Notes under the pieces: model-generated
Seen by the model: the letters and a program-made list of their open reading frames with translations, nothing else
The model's database searches: none
What the model was told of the DNA's origin: nothing
IMG/VR virus record: IMGVR_UViG_3300046522_000467
Span: 1-21,987 of that record
DNA: 21,987 nt
Origin: a virus
Direction: 5' to 3' (one strand)
Made by a program: the position numbers and the translations under genes
In this document: positions 8,029 to 17,858 of the stretch, piece after piece
How the letters are laid out: each line of letters starts with the position of its first letter
How positions within the stretch are numbered: the stretch's first letter is position 1

Positions 8029-8510
8029 GCTGAGGCCTCCGCAATGATCGCCGGCGGCTCGGCGCCCTCAAGCTGCTGCTGAATACGGACGACCATCTGA
8101 GCCAGCTGTTCGCAGGTTGATTGCGCCGCGCGGGCTGGCTCTGTCAAGTTGGCCTCTGGGAATGCCATGTAGGTTTTGGCGGCAGTCTTCAGGTGCGTGG
8201 CGGCGGTCAGCAGCAGCTTGATGTCTTCGGTCACGAAGCTTTGGCCGGCGTACAGCGCGATCCGGCGATCTGCCACCTGTGTGATCGACTCCTGTTCCTG
8301 TAGTAGGTCGGTGATGCGGGCCTTGGCCGCGCCCAGCCGAAGCTCCAGGTTTATGCCCAGGTCGTGACCAACTCTGGCGGCGTCTTCGTAACCCTCGTCG
8401 TAACCGGCAGTCCGGGCTTTTTCTGCTTGGTAGGTAGCCCAAGCCGCAAGTGCGAGCAGGGCGATGATGTTGGCTGCGATAGCTATTGCAGCGATTGCAA
8501 TTGGGTCCAT
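8025..8510 (-). CDS. Small membrane-anchored coiled-coil protein
   Basis: The 161-residue product has one N-terminal hydrophobic helix (about residues 4-25, alanine and isoleucine rich). It is followed by QAEKARTAGYDEGYEDAARVG and a long helical, probably coiled-coil region containing ARITDLLQEQESITQVADRR. The topology suggests a protein anchored in the inner membrane with a cytosolic helical domain. It ends in an ATGA overlap with the HD gene. Its ATG follows GAGGACACAGCAC, so the Shine-Dalgarno lies inside the repeated leader element described separately. No known function; similar unnamed proteins occur in Pseudomonas prophages. Confidence 0.75.
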   Translation of the reverse strand: MDPIAIAAIAIAANIIALLALAAWATYQAEKARTAGYDEGYEDAARVGHDLGINLELRLGAAKARITDLLQEQESITQVADRRIALYAGQSFVTEDIKLLLTAATHLKTAAKTYMAFPEANLTEPARAAQSTCEQLAQMVVRIQQQLEGAEPPAIIAEASA

Positions 8511-8567
8511 GTGCTGTGTCCTCGTTGGGCCCGCCGCCGGGTATTGATGTGAGAGTCCGGTGGCGGG
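8511..8567 (-). promoter_or_regulatory. Leader element copy a: CTCTCAC-loop hairpin plus GACACAGCAC
   Basis: On the minus strand an 11-bp hairpin (arms 8557-8567 and 8530-8540, one G-U pair) carries the loop ACTCTCACATCAATAC. GACACAGCAC (8520-8511) follows and is immediately joined to the ATG of the 8510 gene. The Shine-Dalgarno GAGG is part of the element. The loop motif and the 10-mer recur in three other leaders of this prophage. Confidence 0.6.
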
Positions 8568-8580
8568 GTGTTGCGAATGG

Positions 8581-9402
8581 TTAGATGCTGGCTTCGTACA
8601 TCGGCACTTCGTTGATGCCTTCGCTGATGGTGTTGCGAACCGCGGCGTAGGCTTCTTCCAATACCTTGTCCGGACGCACGAGCTCGTACCAAACCTGCAA
8701 GCGGCCCTCGACGATGCGGTAGCGGAACCGCGCGGAAACCAGGAAGGCCTCGCCGCCGATGAAAGGCTTCACGCCGATGTAGAACTGCTCAGGGATTCGC
8801 AGTTGGCCAGTTTCCCCGGCGCGGCCATCGATTTCTTCGTTGTAAGTCAGCTGCACCTGGCCGTTATCGAGGCGGGTGCCTTGCCGGAAGGTGATGTTTT
8901 TCTGCGCCTGCAGGGTGCGGCTGATTTCCAGCATGTCAGCCGCAGTCGGCGCGCCTGGCGTCTGGTCGTTGGTGACCACGTCCTTCACGTTGTCCTCAAT
9001 GAACTCGGCGAATTCGGCCTGGGTCATTTTCTTGCGGTCGTTTTGCTTCCAGTTGCCCCATTCAACGGTCAATGGGCAGGCATAGGAGGCGGTGTGCGAC
9101 CCCCAAGCGGGCTGGTCAGGCTGGTGGTAATCGAATACCACGCGGAAGGTGCGGCCGTTGGGGCCGTTACAGAAGACCACCGTGGCTGACGTGGTGAAGC
9201 GTTTTACGTAGTCGATGAAGGTTTCAGCATCCAGCACGTTCAGATGTTGCTTGGTGCGGACCGGGGCCGGCAGGTGCTGCTCCAGCACTTCCAGCGAGAC
9301 GCCGGCCGGTACCAGCGCGAGTGGGGCCTTGATCTGGTCAACGGTGAAGGGTTTGCCGAGGGCCTGCGCCAGTGAGGCCAACAGGCTGATTGCTTCTTTC
9401 AT
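8581..9402 (-). CDS. DUF2303 family protein (YfdQ-like)
   Basis: The 273-residue product matches the DUF2303/YfdQ family found in prophages such as E. coli CPS-53. Recognisable stretches are HLNVLDAETFIDYVKRF near residue 55, VVFDYHQPDQPAWGSHTASY, then EFAEFIEDNV and the C-terminal FLVSARFRYRI...LQVWYELVRPD. The biochemical role of the family is unknown to me; it is cytosolic with no membrane segment. ATG 9402 has AGAGGAG eight bases upstream. The neighbouring YfdR-like gene supports the family call, because these two genes travel together in other prophages. Confidence 0.88.
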   Translation of the reverse strand: MKEAISLLASLAQALGKPFTVDQIKAPLALVPAGVSLEVLEQHLPAPVRTKQHLNVLDAETFIDYVKRFTTSATVVFCNGPNGRTFRVVFDYHQPDQPAWGSHTASYACPLTVEWGNWKQNDRKKMTQAEFAEFIEDNVKDVVTNDQTPGAPTAADMLEISRTLQAQKNITFRQGTRLDNGQVQLTYNEEIDGRAGETGQLRIPEQFYIGVKPFIGGEAFLVSARFRYRIVEGRLQVWYELVRPDKVLEEAYAAVRNTISEGINEVPMYEASI

Positions 9403-9434
9403 GGGGTGCTCCTCTGAGCGATGGGGAAGGGTTG

Positions 9435-9773
9435 TTATTCGCCGGCTGTGCGCAGCTGGGCGGGGGATTCGTCTATAACCGGGCGTAGTTCCAGATTCTG
9501 CTGGCGTGGATCGCGGCGGCTGAGGTTGCCCTCGGGGGTGAGGAAGAACAGCGAGCTTCCACGCGGCAACTTCGGTTCTTTGGCTTTCACTTCCGCTTTC
9601 ACGGTGATCTGGCCAGCGCCTTCGGGCTTATAGGTGAGCTTGATCGTCAGCTCGCCGGCCTTATTGGTGAGGCGAATCAGGTCTATCAGGCTGTGCTGAG
9701 CGTCAGTCAGCTCGTCCAGCAGGCCGCCCATCTCCACTTCGCGGATGGTGTCGAGGAAAGGTCGTTTACTCAT
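9435..9773 (-). CDS. Small early phage protein of unknown function (112 aa)
   Basis: The product starts MSKRPFLDTIREVEMGGLLDELTDAQHSLIDLIRLTN. It has a beta-rich middle (GELTIKLTYKPEG, QITVKAEVKAKEPKLPR) and a charged tail. Its place directly upstream of the DUF2303 gene matches where yfdP-type proteins sit, but I cannot confirm a family. ATG 9773 was chosen because it directly follows GAGACACAGCAC, the same start context as the 8510 gene; an upstream in-frame ATG would read through that element. No membrane segment. Confidence 0.75.
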   Translation of the reverse strand: MSKRPFLDTIREVEMGGLLDELTDAQHSLIDLIRLTNKAGELTIKLTYKPEGAGQITVKAEVKAKEPKLPRGSSLFFLTPEGNLSRRDPRQQNLELRPVIDESPAQLRTAGE

Positions 9774-9813
9774 GTGCTGTGTCTCGGTGATGGTGGGGCC
9801 GGTGAGAGTCGGC
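9774..9813 (-). promoter_or_regulatory. Leader element copy b: CTCTCAC-loop hairpin plus GACACAGCAC
   Basis: On the minus strand GCCG-ACTCTCAC-CGGC (9813-9798) forms a small hairpin whose loop is ACTCTCAC. GACACAGCAC follows 18 nt later (9783-9774) and abuts the ATG at 9773. The stem differs completely from those of the other copies while the loop is kept. Confidence 0.55.
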
Positions 9814-9815
9814 AA

Positions 9816-9838
9816 AGGGCTGGCGGGCCAGCCCTGGG
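9816..9838 (-). terminator. Possible weak terminator or attenuator in the leftward operon
   Basis: On the minus strand AGGGCTGG-CCCG-CCAGCCCT (9835-9816) is a perfect 8-bp GC-rich stem followed by TTGCC, a short T run. It lies just before leader element b, downstream of the 78-aa PrtN-like gene. It could reduce read-through into the DUF2303 segment. The poor T tract makes full termination unlikely. Confidence 0.4.
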
Positions 9839-9898
9839 TGGGTGAGGTCGTGCGGTGCAGCTATTTCATTGCCAATCCTCCCTACAGAGCCTGGCGCC

Positions 9899-10135
9899 TC
9901 AGGCGGCTGTTGCGGCGCGGGTGTCCAGAAAAGCGGCCAGATCAACTAGCCGGACTTGCAACGGTGCCAGCCGCGATTCGTACGGTTTGAACGTGGCGAG
10001 ATTCACGCTGCCGTGGCGGATCAGCGAGCGCAGGCGCTTCTCGGTTTTAATGCCTGGGAAGTAGTGTTCGCGTACCAGGTCCAATGGAAGGCTGGTGGCC
10101 TTCCATCGTTCTTGGAGGAGTTCAAGCGTTGTCAT
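9899..10135 (-). CDS. Second PrtN-like DNA-binding protein (78 aa)
   Basis: The product has the same layout as the PrtN-like protein at 4379-4657: LPLDLVREHYFPGI (compare IPLERVCADYFSHL), a short helix, GSVNLATF, then a serine-containing turn and the closing helix VRLVDLAAFLDTR (compare INDLAKYLDER). I therefore call it a diverged PrtN-family DNA-binding protein; the true target is unknown. ATG 10135 forms an ATGA overlap with the gene before it, and AGGAG lies six bases upstream. It has no close downstream partner: about 125 bases with a hairpin and leader element b follow. Confidence 0.65.
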   Translation of the reverse strand: MTTLELLQERWKATSLPLDLVREHYFPGIKTEKRLRSLIRHGSVNLATFKPYESRLAPLQVRLVDLAAFLDTRAATAA

Positions 10136-10404
10136 GCTGCTCCTACCCCGCGCCCCACCTCTTGGTGGCCGAGCCGGTGCGCGATCAGCTCGACGAGCCC
10201 GTCAATGCTGTGGCAAGTGGCGCTGGCCGCAATGCAGTTCGCTTCGTTGGCCATTACTGCCCCGTAGGGGCGTTCGGGGTCGGTCGTGAGCGTCACGTGC
10301 GGCAGGCATCCAACGGGAGCGATTGCCAAAAGCGCGACGAACAGCGCCACCAGGTCAGACGGTTGAGCTGGCACGGCTTGGGCTTTGTCGATGTTGGTTT
10401 TCAT
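10132..10404 (-). CDS. Small protein of unknown function (90 aa)
   Basis: The gene is supported mainly by context: ATG 10404 overlaps the previous stop as ATGA, AAGGA lies upstream, and the stop overlaps the next start as ATGA. The product has a hydrophobic stretch SDLVALFVALLAIAPVGCL (about residues 16-34), which could be a membrane helix or a buried helix, and then a mixed segment with several Cys and His residues. No family recognised. Confidence 0.6.
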   Translation of the reverse strand: MKTNIDKAQAVPAQPSDLVALFVALLAIAPVGCLPHVTLTTDPERPYGAVMANEANCIAASATCHSIDGLVELIAHRLGHQEVGRGVGAA

Positions 10405-10685
10405 GCTGCGCTGTCCTTGCTGGGTATGTTGGTGATGGCGACGCCCAGTTGGGACGCGAGCCAGTCAATTCCTTGTTCGGTGACCATCAGCACGGCGTAG
10501 TGCTTCGGGCGGCCGAAGTGTTTAGGGGTGGTTACGCGAGGGTCCATGAACAGCTTGCCGCCACCGATGTGCTTGGCTGCGAGTGAGCCGTCCCGGTTAA
10601 CAGCGTTGGTGCCACGCAGGTGGTCGCGCAGGCGAGTCTCCGAGACGCCCAGCACTTGGGCGGCTTCACGAATGGTGCGATTCAT
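10401..10685 (-). CDS. KilAC-like (phage antirepressor C-terminal type) DNA-binding protein
   Basis: The 94-residue product reads as a free-standing KilAC-type domain: the helix-turn-helix TIREAAQVLGVSETRLRDHLR (residues 4-24), then GGKLFMDPRV, HYAVLMVTEQGIDWLASQL. In larger antirepressors this domain forms the C-terminal part, fused to a Bro-N or KilA-N domain that is absent here. It could compete at operators or regulate the early operon. ATG 10685 is the start, with GAGGG about ten bases upstream. The fold is a good guess; the role is inference. Confidence 0.65.
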   Translation of the reverse strand: MNRTIREAAQVLGVSETRLRDHLRGTNAVNRDGSLAAKHIGGGKLFMDPRVTTPKHFGRPKHYAVLMVTEQGIDWLASQLGVAITNIPSKDSAA

Positions 10686-10696
10686 GTTGGCGACCC

Positions 10697-11266
10697 TCAG
10701 GCTGCTTGGCGGCTATTGCGTTGCAACGTCCGGATGAGGCTTTCCAGATCGTCGTAAAGATGCTCAATTGGGCCATCGTTGACCACTACGTGATCAAGCG
10801 GCCACACGGTTACGCCGCTCTCGCTGACGTGGTCTGCTACTACTGAAGCGTCAGGACGGGTGATGTGAACGATCACGCCACCTTTACTGCGTACCCAGTC
10901 CGCCTCGTTGTCGAAGCGCACATCGCGGATCACTACGCCTTGCATGTCCTGATTCAGCTCGGCCATTGCCTGGAGGTTTCGCTCCGCCAGCAGCAACCAC
11001 AGCTGAGGGTGCACCAGGTCGCGGCCCCACTCGGTACCGAGCAGCTGCATCAGCTCGCGCGGCGACTTGCCGAGCCACTCCAAAGGCAGCTCTTTCTCAG
11101 CGCCTTCTAGCTGCGCGGCGGTGAGGCTGAATAGCCCTGCCAGCGCCTGTTTAAGCGGATCGGCGAAGGCGTAGCTGATGAGGGTCAGGTGTGCTGCCAG
11201 ATAGCTGGCAACGGTGTCTTTGCCTACCCGGGCGCGGCCAGCAAGGCCTATGAGCATCTGGCTCAT
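10697..11266 (-). CDS. Deoxynucleoside monophosphate kinase
   Basis: The 189-residue product starts with MSQMLIGLAGRARVGKDT, whose P-loop (residues 7-18, Lys16) and following FADPLKQAL match the phage dNMP kinase group typified by T4 gp1. Further family marks are RELMQLLGTEWGRD and VVIRDVRFDNEADW. The enzyme would use ATP to turn dNMPs into dNDPs, feeding phage DNA synthesis. ATG 11266 overlaps the previous stop as ATGA and has GGAGG five bases upstream. In T4-like phages such kinases also accept modified dCMP, so pairing with an HD nucleotidase and a cytosine methyltransferase in one operon is worth noting. Confidence 0.85.
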   Translation of the reverse strand: MSQMLIGLAGRARVGKDTVASYLAAHLTLISYAFADPLKQALAGLFSLTAAQLEGAEKELPLEWLGKSPRELMQLLGTEWGRDLVHPQLWLLLAERNLQAMAELNQDMQGVVIRDVRFDNEADWVRSKGGVIVHITRPDASVVADHVSESGVTVWPLDHVVVNDGPIEHLYDDLESLIRTLQRNSRQAA

Positions 11267-11604
11267 GCTGCCTCCTGGCGTTCGGCTGGGTAGTTGGGCA
11301 GGTAGGCATGAAGAGCGGCGCGCATGAATTCCAGTTCGCGCTGGCAGCGCAGTAGCTGCTGGGTGTAGCGCTGTTCATCCTCATGCTGCGGGCAATACGG
11401 CTCCCAGCGGACATCGGCGCAGGCTATTTGCAGGGGGCGATGGTCTGGGACCTGACTCCAATCGGAGCCGCGTGGATAGATCTCTACCGATATGCGTGAG
11501 GTGTGTCCGCGGGTTTGGACAAACACTTGATAGGTGCCATCGGCGGCCAGCATGGCGCCGATTTGCATGATCTGGATGAGCAGAAGCTGGGTTGAGGCGC
11601 TCAT
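11263..11604 (-). CDS. Early phage protein of unknown function (113 aa)
   Basis: The product starts MSASTQLLLIQIMQIGAML and continues with a beta-rich part (YQVFVQTRGHTSRISVEIYPRG). It then has a helical tail containing QQLLRCQRELEFMRAALHAYL. It is held in the operon by ATGA overlaps at both ends, with GGAGG nine bases before its start. No membrane segment long enough to be convincing and no recognised family. Confidence 0.7.
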   Translation of the reverse strand: MSASTQLLLIQIMQIGAMLAADGTYQVFVQTRGHTSRISVEIYPRGSDWSQVPDHRPLQIACADVRWEPYCPQHEDEQRYTQQLLRCQRELEFMRAALHAYLPNYPAERQEAA

Positions 11605-11861
11605 GCTGCGTCACCTCCGAATGGGTCGGAGTTGGGCGCAACAAGGGCTGCGAGACGGCGGCTGTTTATGTCATCAGAGAAAAACTCAGTGCGACCAGAG
11701 ACGGACCATTGAGTGGTGCGAGGTTGGCTGAGCCGAGGCTTGCCGCCATTGATCACAATCAGTTGGCCAGTAGCCTCCTGAACTGCGCGAACGGCGGCAG
11801 GGCTTGTAGTACATGCCGGGTGTAAAAGCACCGGGCAGCGGGAGTGCTGTGTCGTTTGCAT
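11601..11861 (-). CDS. First gene of the leftward operon, unknown function (86 aa)
   Basis: The first gene after the predicted leftward promoter, where lambda has N. The product is 86 residues with no recognised family and is not arginine-rich enough at the N terminus to look like an N antiterminator. The start is uncertain: ATG 11861 has TTGGGG 8 bases upstream, but codons 3-6 coincide with GACACAGCAC of leader element d. The true start may therefore be further inside, or the element and gene really overlap. The stop overlaps the next start as ATGA. Confidence 0.55.
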   Translation of the reverse strand: MQTTQHSRCPVLLHPACTTSPAAVRAVQEATGQLIVINGGKPRLSQPRTTQWSVSGRTEFFSDDINSRRLAALVAPNSDPFGGDAA

Positions 11862-11894
11862 TGCGTAAACCCCAAGGTGAGAGAGTGGGTACGC
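11844..11894 (-). promoter_or_regulatory. Leader element copy d at the 5' end of the leftward transcript
   Basis: On the minus strand GCGTA+CCC pairs with GGG+TACGC (11894-11863, with a small bulge). The loop contains ACTCTCTCACC and the GGGG Shine-Dalgarno of the 11861 ATG is in the 3' arm. GACACAGCAC follows at 11853-11844. The predicted transcription start (about 11893) falls at the base of this hairpin, so the leftward mRNA would begin with it. Confidence 0.5.
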
Positions 11895-11899
11895 AGCAA

Positions 11900-11928
11900 A
11901 CAATACAGCCGTGAATAGATCAGATCAA
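11900..11928 (-). promoter_or_regulatory. Predicted leftward early promoter (PL-like)
   Basis: On the minus strand TTGATC (11928-11923) and TATTGT (11905-11900) are separated by exactly 17 bases, four of six matches in each box. An operator-like 18-mer (11926-11943) overlaps the -35 box. It would drive the long leftward operon. Confidence 0.55.
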
Positions 11929-11943
11929 TACATCTATGAATTA
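11926..11943. promoter_or_regulatory. Repressor operator-like site (OL-like)
   Basis: CAATACATCTATGAATTA matches the best operator at 12687-12704 at 15 of 18 positions. It covers the last codons and stop of the repressor gene and the -35 box of the predicted leftward promoter. Repressor bound here would block leftward transcription. Confidence 0.6.
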
Positions 11944-12608
11944 AAGTTGTGGGCGCGATGCCTTCTTTTCATCCAAGAGCCTGTTACGACGCCGCAGATC
12001 TCGGTGTCCTCCGGTACGGTGATGATCCGGTTCGGGAAGTCGGGGTTAAGGGCTAGGAGAAAGGTACCGTCCTCGGTGATTTGAAGACGTTTGAATGTCG
12101 CTAAGCCATCCGGTGTTCGACAGACCACGTCATCGTCATGCATCGCTTCGAGCATCGGCTCAACAACGATTAACTCACCTGGGCGGTAGTCGGGAAACAT
12201 GCTGGTACCGCGCACCTCGAGGCAATAAGCTTTCTTACTGTGCGGGAATGGGCAATCTAGCCATTCCTCTGCGTAGCCGGGTTCAAACAAATCAATAGCC
12301 TCACTTAGGGCGCCTGCCTGCACCCAAGACAACCGAGGTACCCGGCCAACAATGGCGGGGCCTGCAATGACGTTCTCGTCATAATCCGTTGCGAGTTTTC
12401 CGCTTAGTAAAGCAGCACCGTCCAAGCCTAGGGCTTTGGCGATGTTCATCACGTTATCAATTCGCGGATTGTTAGAATCACCGTGGAGTATCCGGTGAAC
12501 TGTCGGCTGGGAAACGCCAGAGCGTCGCCCCAACTCACCTTCCGACCAGCCCTTCTCGGCTAACTTGATCGTCAGCAGCTGACCCATCAGCTGCCCTGAA
12601 ATCGCCAT
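11934..12608 (-). CDS. Phage repressor, HTH plus S24/LexA-like autocleavage domain
   Basis: The 224-residue product is a CI/LexA-type repressor that should keep the prophage silent and be inactivated by RecA-stimulated self-cleavage. The N-terminal helix-turn-helix includes GELGRRSGVSQPTVHRILHG (24-43). The C-terminal peptidase domain has a cleavage site Ala98-Gly99 in WVQAGA, the nucleophile Ser136 in RGTSMFPDYRPGE and the general base Lys173 in ATFKRL. ATG 12608 has AAGGA about nine bases upstream; ATG 12587, preceded by AGGG, is the alternative. The gene is divergent from the Cro-like gene with shared operators between. Its recognition helix starts SQPT as in the Cro-like protein, which fits binding to the same sites. 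Confidence 0.93.
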   Translation of the reverse strand: MAISGQLMGQLLTIKLAEKGWSEGELGRRSGVSQPTVHRILHGDSNNPRIDNVMNIAKALGLDGAALLSGKLATDYDENVIAGPAIVGRVPRLSWVQAGALSEAIDLFEPGYAEEWLDCPFPHSKKAYCLEVRGTSMFPDYRPGELIVVEPMLEAMHDDDVVCRTPDGLATFKRLQITEDGTFLLALNPDFPNRIITVPEDTEICGVVTGSWMKRRHRAHNFNS

Positions 12609-12621
12609 GCGCTTTGATTCC

Positions 12622-12704
12622 TTATTCGCAGATGAATAATTCAGGATTGTATTGCTCTGATAAATTCATGTGCGTATCATCGCCAGTAATTCATCTGTGA
12701 ATTA
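12622..12704. promoter_or_regulatory. Operator cluster with divergent promoters PR and PRM
   Basis: TAATTCATCTGTGAATTA (12687-12704) is a perfect palindrome with 7-bp arms. Related 18-mers lie at 12622-12639 (15/18 on the other strand) and 12662-12679 (13/18), with a weak one at 12637-12654 (12/18). PR: TTGCTC 12652-12657, 17-base spacer, TATCAT 12675-12680; an operator covers the -10. PRM on the minus strand: TACAAT at 12651-12646 with a poor -35. Confidence 0.8.
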
Positions 12705-12716
12705 AAGGGGTCTTAG

Positions 12717-12911
12717 ATGACCATTCAAAAAATGCTTGAGGCTTTGTTTGGTTTAGGCCTCAGCCAGCAGGAGATTGCAGCGTTGACCGGTGTCAGTCAG
12801 CCGACCATCTGCAGGGCCCACCGCGGTGCAGATGTGCTCTACAAAAGCGGCAAACAGATTGAACGCCTTTACCAAGAACGCTTGAGCGGCCCGGTAAAAA
12901 AGGTTGCTTGA
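12717..12911 (+). CDS. Cro-like repressor
   Basis: A 64-residue helix-turn-helix protein: LSQQEIAALTGVSQPTICRA (residues 15-34) with a short basic tail. It lies opposite the S24 repressor across the operators, exactly where Cro sits in lambda-type phages, and its recognition helix begins SQPT like that of the repressor. ATG 12717 has AAGGGG six bases upstream and is about 30 bases from the predicted rightward start site. It would shut off the repressor promoter and favour lytic growth. Function follows from position and motif. Confidence 0.85.
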   Translation: MTIQKMLEALFGLGLSQQEIAALTGVSQPTICRAHRGADVLYKSGKQIERLYQERLSGPVKKVA

Positions 12912-13102
12912 GTAGCTCCAGCGTAAAGAGCTGGAGAGCAAGATGCTGGCGCGGAGCTCTCACACACCGCGCCAGCAGGTGCCTGGCAAGGACTCTCACA
13001 TCCTTGCTTCGGCGTACGACGACACAGCACAGCATCGGTCGTGGTCATAGAGTAGGGCTTGCCCTGCGCCATGGCTACACCGTAAAGGAGTCATTTACGG
13101 TT
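12912..13102 (+). promoter_or_regulatory. Structured leader between cro and cII: four hairpins, element copy c
   Basis: No coding frame is convincing here. H1: CTCCAGC-GTAAAGA-GCTGGAG (12916-12936). H2: 11-bp stem 12944-12954/12967-12977 with loop AGCTCTCACACA. H3: GCAAGGA-CTCTCACA-TCCTTGC (12986-13007). GACACAGCAC is at 13021-13030. H4: ACCGTAAA-GGAGTCA-TTTACGGT (13079-13101) carries the Shine-Dalgarno GGAG of the cII-like gene in its loop. H2 and H3 share the eight loop bases CTCTCACA on unrelated stems. The position equals that of lambda nutR, and GCTCTCACACA in H2 differs at one base from the lambda nutR boxA core as I remember it. The CUCU of these loops could also pair with the GGAG of H4. 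Confidence 0.6.
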
Positions 13103-13591
13103 ATGAGTCGCACAGACCTTTTGCCGGATGCAGGTCCGGTCCTCTCACTGCGCCAAGCGCTTTATCGCTCGGGGCGCGACTTCAAGGGCGGCATCACAGG
13201 CCTTGCCCACTCACTGGATATCGATTTAGACGCCCTTCAAAAAAAGCTCAAGTGGGATTTCGAGGGACGATGGTTGTCGCCTGATGAGCTCGAAGAGGTG
13301 ATCCGAAAAACTCAAGATCCAAGGTTGCTTGATGCGCTAGTCCGCCCAGCCGGCGTGGTCTGGTTCAAGCCTCAACCGGTATCGGCAACTCGCGACGCTC
13401 TACGGGCTGTTGGGTCCCTTTTGGAGACTGAGGGTAAGTTCGTTGGCAGCCTTCACGAAGGTGCTGCCGACAACGTATGGCAGCATCATGAGGTGGCGCT
13501 GCTTGAATTTCACGGAAACGAAGTGATACGAGCCGTGCTCGGAATTATGGCTGGGGCTCGCGCAGCAATGGAGGGCCGCCAGGATGGATGA
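13103..13591 (+). CDS. CII / CP76-type phage regulatory protein
   Basis: The 162-residue product matches the Phage_CP76 (regulatory CII) family: SLRQALYRSGRDFKGGITGLAHSLDI followed by DALQKKLKWDFEGRWLSPDELEEVIRKTQDPRLLDAL, a helix-turn-helix unit with the family's leucine pattern. Such proteins act as transcription activators in the lysogeny decision. The frame is open upstream to 12908, but ATG 13103 gives the family start. Its Shine-Dalgarno GGAG is 12 bases away, in the loop of an 8-bp hairpin, which is unusual and may make translation conditional. The stop overlaps the next start by 8 bases. Confidence 0.82.
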   Translation: MSRTDLLPDAGPVLSLRQALYRSGRDFKGGITGLAHSLDIDLDALQKKLKWDFEGRWLSPDELEEVIRKTQDPRLLDALVRPAGVVWFKPQPVSATRDALRAVGSLLETEGKFVGSLHEGAADNVWQHHEVALLEFHGNEVIRAVLGIMAGARAAMEGRQDG

Positions 13592-13787
13592 GCACATCTA
13601 CGAGTTGGCTCAGGCCTCCGAGGAGGCGCGCATACAGACGGCCATCGCTAACCGGGTGCAATACCGCGGTGAAAGCGCGACTGAGTGCGATAGCTGCGGG
13701 GTCGATATACCTGACGCGCGTCGTCTGGCAGTACCGGGCTGCCGTTATTGCACCTACTGCCAGACCTTGGTGGAGGTGCGGAAATGA
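13584..13787 (+). CDS. TraR/DksA-family C4 zinc-finger protein
   Basis: A 67-residue protein with the DksA/TraR zinc finger: CDSCG followed by DIPDARRLAVPG and CRYCTYCQ, giving the Cys-x2-Cys/Cys-x2-Cys set. An N-terminal helix (DEHIYELAQASEEARIQTAIANR) precedes it, as in short TraR proteins. Phage and plasmid TraR proteins bind the secondary channel of RNA polymerase and mimic ppGpp-DksA. The start overlaps the CII-like gene and the stop overlaps the next gene as ATGA, so translation is likely coupled. Confidence 0.85.
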   Translation: MDEHIYELAQASEEARIQTAIANRVQYRGESATECDSCGVDIPDARRLAVPGCRYCTYCQTLVEVRK

Positions 13788-17073: not shown

Positions 17074-17673
17074 ATGATTGAAGCAGTAGAGGCGGTAATG
17101 CGGCATTGGGGCGAAAGCGTGCGCCGTGGTGCGGATGGCGGCGGCTTGGCGAGCCCGGCCGGAACCTTGGTGGAGTGGAAGGGTTGTCCGCCCCGCACCG
17201 CCTCCTCCGGCTCTCGTGTGCTGCTTGCCGGCGCAGGGCCTGACTTCCTGTCCAGCGAAGTGGAAGCGGCGTTGGCAGCTATCGAGCGCATGCCAGAGGG
17301 GGCTGGCGCGGTTCGGCTTGCTTTGAGGCGTTATGTGTTCGTGCCTCCCCTTACCGTGGATGAGCAAGTCCGTGACCTGCAGCTTGGGTTGGGCGCTGCT
17401 GGCCAGCAGGCGTACTTCCGTCTGCTTCATCGGTTGCATGAACTGGTGAAGGCGGAACTGACGGCAAGGCGCGAACTGGTTCTAGCCATTCACCGGGAAT
17501 CGAAGAAAGCTGGTGATCGCACTCGAAAGTCAGCGGTGCGGCTGGCGGGGCGAGCGCATGCAGCGCGGGTTAAAGAGCTGTATCGCGGCAATGGTTTAAA
17601 CCATTCGTCTGGAGACTCGGCGCCAGTCGGCTCCGGTGCGCCCCGGCAAGCCCCCGTCAGGAACAACCGTTAA
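17074..17673 (+). CDS. Unknown protein in the Q antiterminator position
   Basis: About 199 residues, starting MIEAVEAVMRHWGESVRRG. A helix-turn-helix-like stretch lies in the second half (VRDLQLGLGAAGQQAYFRLLHRL), followed by a basic tail that becomes low-complexity (SSGDSAPVGSGAPRQAPV). The W-G pattern near the N terminus, the C-terminal sigma-4-like helices and the location between replication and lysis genes resemble antitermination protein Q, but I cannot confirm the family. ATG 17074 has GGAGAG seven bases upstream; ATG 17068 is an alternative. A strong terminator lies 125 bases downstream, where a Q-type protein could act to let late transcription pass. Confidence 0.6.
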   Translation: MIEAVEAVMRHWGESVRRGADGGGLASPAGTLVEWKGCPPRTASSGSRVLLAGAGPDFLSSEVEAALAAIERMPEGAGAVRLALRRYVFVPPLTVDEQVRDLQLGLGAAGQQAYFRLLHRLHELVKAELTARRELVLAIHRESKKAGDRTRKSAVRLAGRAHAARVKELYRGNGLNHSSGDSAPVGSGAPRQAPVRNNR

Positions 17674-17797
17674 TTGGGGGTTTTCGGTTTGTCATTCGGA
17701 GGGTAAAAAGTCACCACGATTCGATAGGTACGCCTACCGAGCAACTAGTGCACGTGCTGTGCCGCCAAGCCCCGAAGTCCCCACTTTGGGCACCTGC
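17674..17797 (+). other. Non-coding stretch before the lysis genes
   Basis: With the terminator at 17798-17828 and the holin leader it makes a 185-base gap without a gene. It holds an 8-bp hairpin with loop CCCC around 17771-17790 (CCCGAAGT pairing with ACTTTGGG through one G-U) and the short palindrome-like AGTGCACGTGCT. I see no clear promoter and no tRNA. In lambda the Q-dependent late promoter and terminator tR' lie in the matching position. Confidence 0.4.
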
Positions 17798-17828
17798 AAA
17801 CCCCGCCACCTGGCGGGGTTTTCTTTTT
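17798..17828 (+). terminator. Strong intrinsic terminator before the holin genes
   Basis: AAACCCCGCC (17798-17807), loop ACCT and GGCGGGGTTT (17812-17821) form a perfect 10-bp stem running into TTTTCTTTTT. It precedes the first lysis gene by 30 bases, like lambda tR', so late expression would need antitermination or a nearby promoter. Confidence 0.9.
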
Positions 17829-17858
17829 CTGGCCCATGGCCGCCTGGAGGGAATCATC

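Follow-up and report, generated by a model that had tools for sequence, protein, structure and literature searches.

A covarying RNA leader element in the early genes of temperate Pseudomonas phages and a late-leader RNA as its candidate partner

Background

What reads a heptamer, CTCTCAC, that recurs on unrelated stems in the early leaders of a temperate phage and is followed each time by the same short motif? The question was raised by the IMG/VR virus record IMGVR_UViG_3300046522_000467, of which positions 1 to 21,987 were analyzed (hereafter the window, a 21,987-base fragment of that record). Its gene content is that of a temperate Pseudomonas phage, in the order integrase, left operon on the minus strand, cI, cro, cII (PF06892), primase and lysis genes; the labels integrase, primase and lysis rest on comparison with annotated relatives. 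Four leaders in the window carry CTCTCAC and then GACACAGCAC. A preliminary description of the window had placed five copies of the heptamer in hairpin loops and four copies of the 10-mer behind them, and all of these positions were confirmed. The analysis presented here identifies a cis-regulatory RNA leader family in the early genes of temperate Pseudomonas phages. The family is new and almost certainly functional as RNA, and selection acts on its loop, its stems and its second motif at the nucleotide level.

Temperate Pseudomonas phages without a recognisable N protein are common, and little is known about the way in which they order the expression of early and late genes. A covarying early-leader RNA, together with a candidate RNA partner from the same phage, offers a concrete handle on that ordering; the element also serves as a marker for finding such phages and supplies a ready test set.

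Distribution of the motif pair

CTCTCAC was present six times in the window against 2.3 expected, a count reached in 2 of 100 shuffles; the sixth copy (13142) lies inside a coding sequence. The preliminary description had held that four copies of GACACAGCAC, always with the same partner, were not due to chance. Nine different 10-mers reach at least four copies in the window, so that count by itself is not decisive; it is the combined pattern that carries the point, with 4 matches and 0 control matches.

Beyond the window, CTCTCAC-N8..38-GACACAGCAC was found in at least 119 stretches of IMG/VR, some of them chance matches, and in Pseudomonas genomes as well. Dozens of phages and prophages of Pseudomonas carry the pair. 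With ACACAGCAC as the second part, 22 of 249 Pseudomonas genomes matched, mostly with 2-4 copies inside one prophage, and a reversed control pattern gave only scattered single matches in the same genomes. Among other Gammaproteobacteria the pattern was present in 3 of 368 genomes, as single copies that look like chance, and a covariance model of the cII leader had 0 matches in 115 other genomes of the order beyond Pseudomonas. Annotated phages that carry the element are Presto, KT1, Lodos and Turba, the last two being inducible P. aeruginosa phages (PMC11846083). No family of Rfam release 15 matched the 8.5-13.1 kb region, where the sole sub-threshold match (osmY) fell inside a gene, and no description of the element was found in the literature searched, including by motif; the preliminary description had likewise known of none.

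Hairpins and leader classes

Four leader classes, A to D, recurred in relatives (Table 1). In class A, which has a GC-rich hairpin, and in class B, which has none, the core of the second motif (CACAGCAC) stands immediately 5' of the ATG. Class C is the leader of the first left gene, directly past cI, and its hairpin lies at most 50 nucleotides (nt) downstream of the presumed left promoter, as read from the sequence. Class D occupies the region between cro and cII, so that the element is present in both early operons, as first proposed.

Table 1 Positions of the leader elements and related features in the window
Feature	Position	Strand	Remarks
GACACAGCAC at ATG of gene 8510-8025	8508..8520	-	Same layout in relatives
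Class A leader hairpin	8530..8567	-	Loop CTCTCAC 8549-8555; folds, z -3.0
GACACAGCAC at ATG of gene 9773-9435	9771..9783	-	Fluorescens-group relatives have CACAGCAC-ATG here without CTCTCAC
Class B CTCTCAC, single-stranded	9802..9808	-	Surrounding 4-bp stem not conserved
Start of left gene 11861-11601 (phrog_13491), ATGCAAACGACACAGCAC	11844..11861	-	Thr4 codon conservation
Class C hairpin	11863..11894	-	CTCTCAC 11877-11883; between cI gene end (11934) and first left gene
Class D upstream tandem hairpin	12944..12977	+	CTCTCAC 12957-12963; 11-bp perfect stem
Class D second hairpin	12986..13007	+	CTCTCAC 12993-12999
Possible helix UACGAC/GUCGUG	13015..13043	+	GACACAGCAC (13021-13030) in loop
Conserved hairpin GUGGUCAU...AUGGCUAC between motif and cII	13041..13078	+	RNAalifold consensus and pair counts
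Hairpin ACCGUAAA/UUUACGGU	13079..13101	+	cII Shine-Dalgarno GGAG in loop; cII ATG 13103
Late-leader RNA 5' of lysis genes, candidate small RNA	17720..17830	+	Hairpin, intrinsic terminator, homologues in relatives
GTGCTGTG, complement of early-leader CACAGCAC	17754..17761	+	Conserved core of late leader

A stem of at least six pairs flanks the loop in 58 of 62 distinct relatives for class A and is kept in 74 of 78 for class C. For class D, the stem of the upstream tandem hairpin was present in 17 of 17 cases and that of the second hairpin in 49 of 49 relatives, with both sides changed at 10 of its 12 pairs. These four of the originally described hairpins fold and are conserved. The fifth, at 9813-9798 in class B, does not hold up: its fold has 4 pairs and no counterpart in five relatives, and a stem of at least six pairs was found at 0 of 6 class B sites.

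The loop CUCUCAC is constant across relatives, the stems vary with compensation, and swapping arms between relatives gave weaker folds. Over the whole class D leader there were 89 doubly changed pair-cells, compared with 27.6 ± 4.4 in shuffles, and 85.7% of cells pair, compared with 33-52% in slid controls. The compensatory change around a fixed loop that had been suspected from the window is thus present among relatives, which were also checked for loops kept without pairing stems and were found to keep both.

The 59 distinct loci examined contain 257 copies of CTCTCAC, compared with 28 to 66 for permuted 7-mers. Separately, many relatives (KT1, which is locus L246, L072, L084 and others) carry CTCTCAC with neither hairpin nor CACAGCAC 15-40 nt upstream of the start of a DUF2303 gene; this arrangement is not present in the window.

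The second motif

The 10-mer proved not to be the unit. In relatives its core, CACAGCAC, is preceded by U or by other letters and most often lies immediately upstream of a start codon. This core is present 239 times in the 59 loci, against 16 expected from base count and 4 to 52 for permuted 8-mers. The constant partnership seen in the window does not extend to relatives. The second motif lies downstream of 172 of the 257 CTCTCAC copies, and the copies without it are mostly also in leaders (the DUF2303 gene leader and the upstream hairpins of class D). Conversely, 85 of the 239 copies of CACAGCAC are immediately 5' of an ATG, 24 of them without CTCTCAC. Because the two motifs occur independently, they likely have separate readers.

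In class C the second motif spans codons 4-6 of the first left gene, yet it is conserved as nucleotides. Thr4 is encoded by ACA in 44 of 50 relatives and Thr3 by ACG in 35 of 46; among the other Thr codons of these genes the frequencies are 15 of 257 and 14 of 257, respectively. The counts come from related genes and so are not independent. The gene itself encodes 64-86 amino acids with the stretches RCPVYLHP and GPWGGDAA and is nearly always present. The conserved stretch in classes C and D is ACGACACAGCAC.

Structure of the cII leader

In class D, conserved structure extends through the leader up to cII. The hairpin at 13079-13101 pairs in 99% of cells with 5 of 8 pairs invariant, and in all aligned relatives the Shine-Dalgarno sequence of cII lies in the loop of this near-invariant hairpin (CCGUAAA/UUUACGG). 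Upstream, the possible helix UACGAC/GUCGUG shows one pair changed from C-G to U-A, on both sides, in 5 sequences. This helix, which encloses CACAGCAC, would be incompatible with part of the 13041-13078 hairpin; the leader could therefore switch folds, and we infer that it may act as a switch between two exclusive structures.

Two coding explanations were rejected. Class D was considered as coding for SSH/DSH repeats, but the spacing between loop, 10-mer and cII varies by 1-2 nt among phages, so no reading frame is kept. An N-terminal extension of CII was discarded as well, its frame being interrupted by stop codons in many relatives.

A late-leader RNA as candidate partner

A search for complements of the early motifs led to the leader of the late genes, 5' of the lysis genes. 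Its GUGCUGUG is complementary to CACAGCAC, and a hairpin GCAC-NUGCU-GUGC is conserved there in otherwise divergent sequence, with an intrinsic terminator downstream of it (17798-17821 in the window). Among the relatives in which it could be looked for, nearly all have a homologous late leader. The hairpin is present in 33 of the 43 loci long enough to test; the remaining 10 include one with an altered copy at the same place, one with a CCGCU loop and at least four with the hairpin (UUGCU, CUGCU or GUGCU) elsewhere in the record. In Rfam release 15 the late leader matched only rnk_pseudo, below threshold (30.9 bits, cut-off 55).

These observations suggest, as the best explanation, a mechanism for which we would give a little less than an even chance: that translation of early mRNAs is shut off when the late-leader RNA pairs with their start regions. 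The early leader consists of two signals that can occur apart, both single-stranded: CUCUCAC, mostly displayed by a hairpin loop, and CACAGCAC, positioned at the start codon or adjacent to it. With the onset of late transcription, a transcript of about 110 nt, terminated intrinsically, would be made, exposing NUGCUGUG across the 5-nt loop and the 3' arm of a hairpin. By pairing there it would keep ribosomes off the cII leader and the start regions of left-operon mRNAs, and the outcome would be an early-to-late shut-off. The late-leader RNA of each phage would have CACAGCAC as its target and would read this motif, not the CUCUCAC loop; the latter may be a docking site for a second factor.

The position of the late leader, its terminator, its conserved seed and the location of the targets all speak for pairing. 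Pairing was scored by contiguous helices, because RNAduplex on long strands gave no information. The best contiguous helix with a phage's own targets averaged -18.3 kcal/mol, compared with -14.3 for other starts and -13.8 for shuffled RNA, and it fell on CACAGCAC at 74 of 105 sites. In P. aeruginosa phages, 18-19 of 20 positions can pair between the late leader and the cII leader. Where a left-operon start lacks CACAGCAC, the sequence is often GCAGC-AUG, and wobble pairs allow this to match the seed too. Seed matches of this type were found at 227 of 599 left-operon starts, compared with 75 of 643 right or late starts. Counted by start family, matches were present in 16 of 36 left families, where shuffled seeds gave 2.0, and in 4 of 30 right or late families.

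Several results weigh against late-leader pairing. The core match is just 7-8 nt and the targets were picked by the motif itself; 3 of 150 shuffled seeds score equally high on left starts, and the energies of other starts overlap, 11% of them reaching the own-target median. The extended pairing is confined to one lineage, and the loop variants of the seed (UUGCU, CUGCU, CCGCU) are not mirrored in the targets, with no clear co-variation. The stretch conserved in classes C and D is broader than the late-leader RNA can pair with. CUCUCAC is left unexplained: an antisense partner for it was sought throughout the phages, and the sole conserved complements were the opposite strands of the elements themselves. 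Finally, the sequence 5' of the late leader yielded no sigma-70 promoter.

The late leader is preceded by direct repeats with a 10-11 nt period (17605-17690 in the window; also in loci L053, L104 and L010). Those of L053 and L104 read ATTGnnGTnnn and resemble PrtN P-boxes. A PrtN-family gene, labelled excisionase in PHROGs, is located in the left operon (9899-10135) and is therefore a possible activator of the late promoter; its product may act there.

As a whole, a phage-wide circuit can be drawn only tentatively, and we consider it doubtful in its entirety. One hairpin loop of the late leader, conserved between P. aeruginosa-, fluorescens- and syringae-group phages, would silence the whole early operon through CACAGCAC or GCAGC before the AUG, CUCUCAC on interchangeable stems would recruit a further factor, and the cII leader would switch between two exclusive folds. 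If true, one late transcript would silence a whole early operon through one shared seed.

Alternative explanations

The main rival is a processive antitermination site of the nut or put kind: in each of the two early operons, the CUCUCAC hairpin and the linear CACAGCAC would load RNA polymerase with Nus factors and a phage protein. Class C has the position of nutL, in the first left leader, and class D that of nutR, between cro and cII; CUCUCACACA resembles the lambda boxA, CUCUUACACA. The lambda arrangement, in which a boxA similar to CGCUCUUUA precedes a boxB hairpin whose loop is GNRA-like, was not found in the leaders, where CUCUCAC is inside the loop, boxB is absent and the linear motif is downstream. 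The base preceding CUCUC is not G, unlike in boxA, and in the window no terminator regularly follows the sites. Sites also lie right at start codons within the left operon, where a complex once loaded would need none. No N-like basic (arginine-rich) protein was recognised among the conserved genes surveyed, although such proteins are short and diverse. In favour of this reading, phages with more than two nut sites are known (mEp021 has three; PMC11893012). On balance we regard antitermination as unlikely.

A shade less probable still is control of translation by an RNA-binding protein, of phage or host origin, that recognises both motifs close to ribosome-binding sites; the complementarity of the late leader would then be coincidental. 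Two strictly invariant unpaired motifs with free stems are typical of protein sites, CACAGCAC lies between the Shine-Dalgarno sequence and the AUG, and in classes C and D conservation reaches ACGACACAGCAC. A single reader of both fits poorly with the occurrence of each motif without the other. No candidate protein was found; the most constant small gene, phrog_13491, was modelled only at low confidence (predicted local distance difference test, pLDDT, 65.5).

That CACAGCAC is instead a DNA operator, with a regulator binding GCACAGCACrTGC at the early leaders and, reversed, at the late leader and only the loop part acting as RNA, is very improbable: the late-leader copy is indeed the quasi-palindromic reverse complement of the early motif, but the sites are located 3' of promoters and at start codons, their orientation is constant throughout, and a terminator follows the late copy on the same strand.

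Comparison with known systems

For late-leader pairing, a precedent is StxS, a late-leader small RNA that blocks the ribosome-binding site of stx1B (PMC7873438). Like the RNA proposed here, StxS of Shiga-toxin phages derives from a terminated late leader (PR'-tR') 5' of lysis genes, and a block of a ribosome-binding site is proposed for both. The two differ in sequence and in targets (stx1B and host rpoS for StxS; the phage's own early genes as candidates here). The StxS promoter is constitutive, whereas the late-leader promoter here looks activator-dependent, and the present RNA is a prediction from sequence. It shares with StxS an intrinsic terminator at its end and a conserved seed complementary to target starts; compensatory changes between seed and targets were not found, so it is not filed as a proven member of that kind.

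Lambda nutL and nutR and HK022 put are also hairpin RNA elements downstream of both early promoters, one of them between cro and cII; put RNA suppresses termination with no phage protein involved. Unlike these, the left operon of the window has three copies adjoining start codons and no boxB, and the element consists of a fixed 7-mer loop on interchangeable stems, then a linear 8-mer. The antisense RNAs c4, sar and OOP are comparable in that a phage RNA silences one of the phage's own early or regulatory genes by pairing. Each of them has one overlapping or neighbouring target, whereas here a single conserved loop would act on several leaders that are not linked.

Neighbouring genes

Four left-operon genes (minus-strand starts 10135, 10404, 11266 and 11604) share a common junction, GCAGCATGA, that overlaps the preceding stop codon. 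On the right, a gene for a TraR/DksA-like C4 zinc-finger protein (13584-13787 in the window) comes after cII in 72 of 75 loci with the element.

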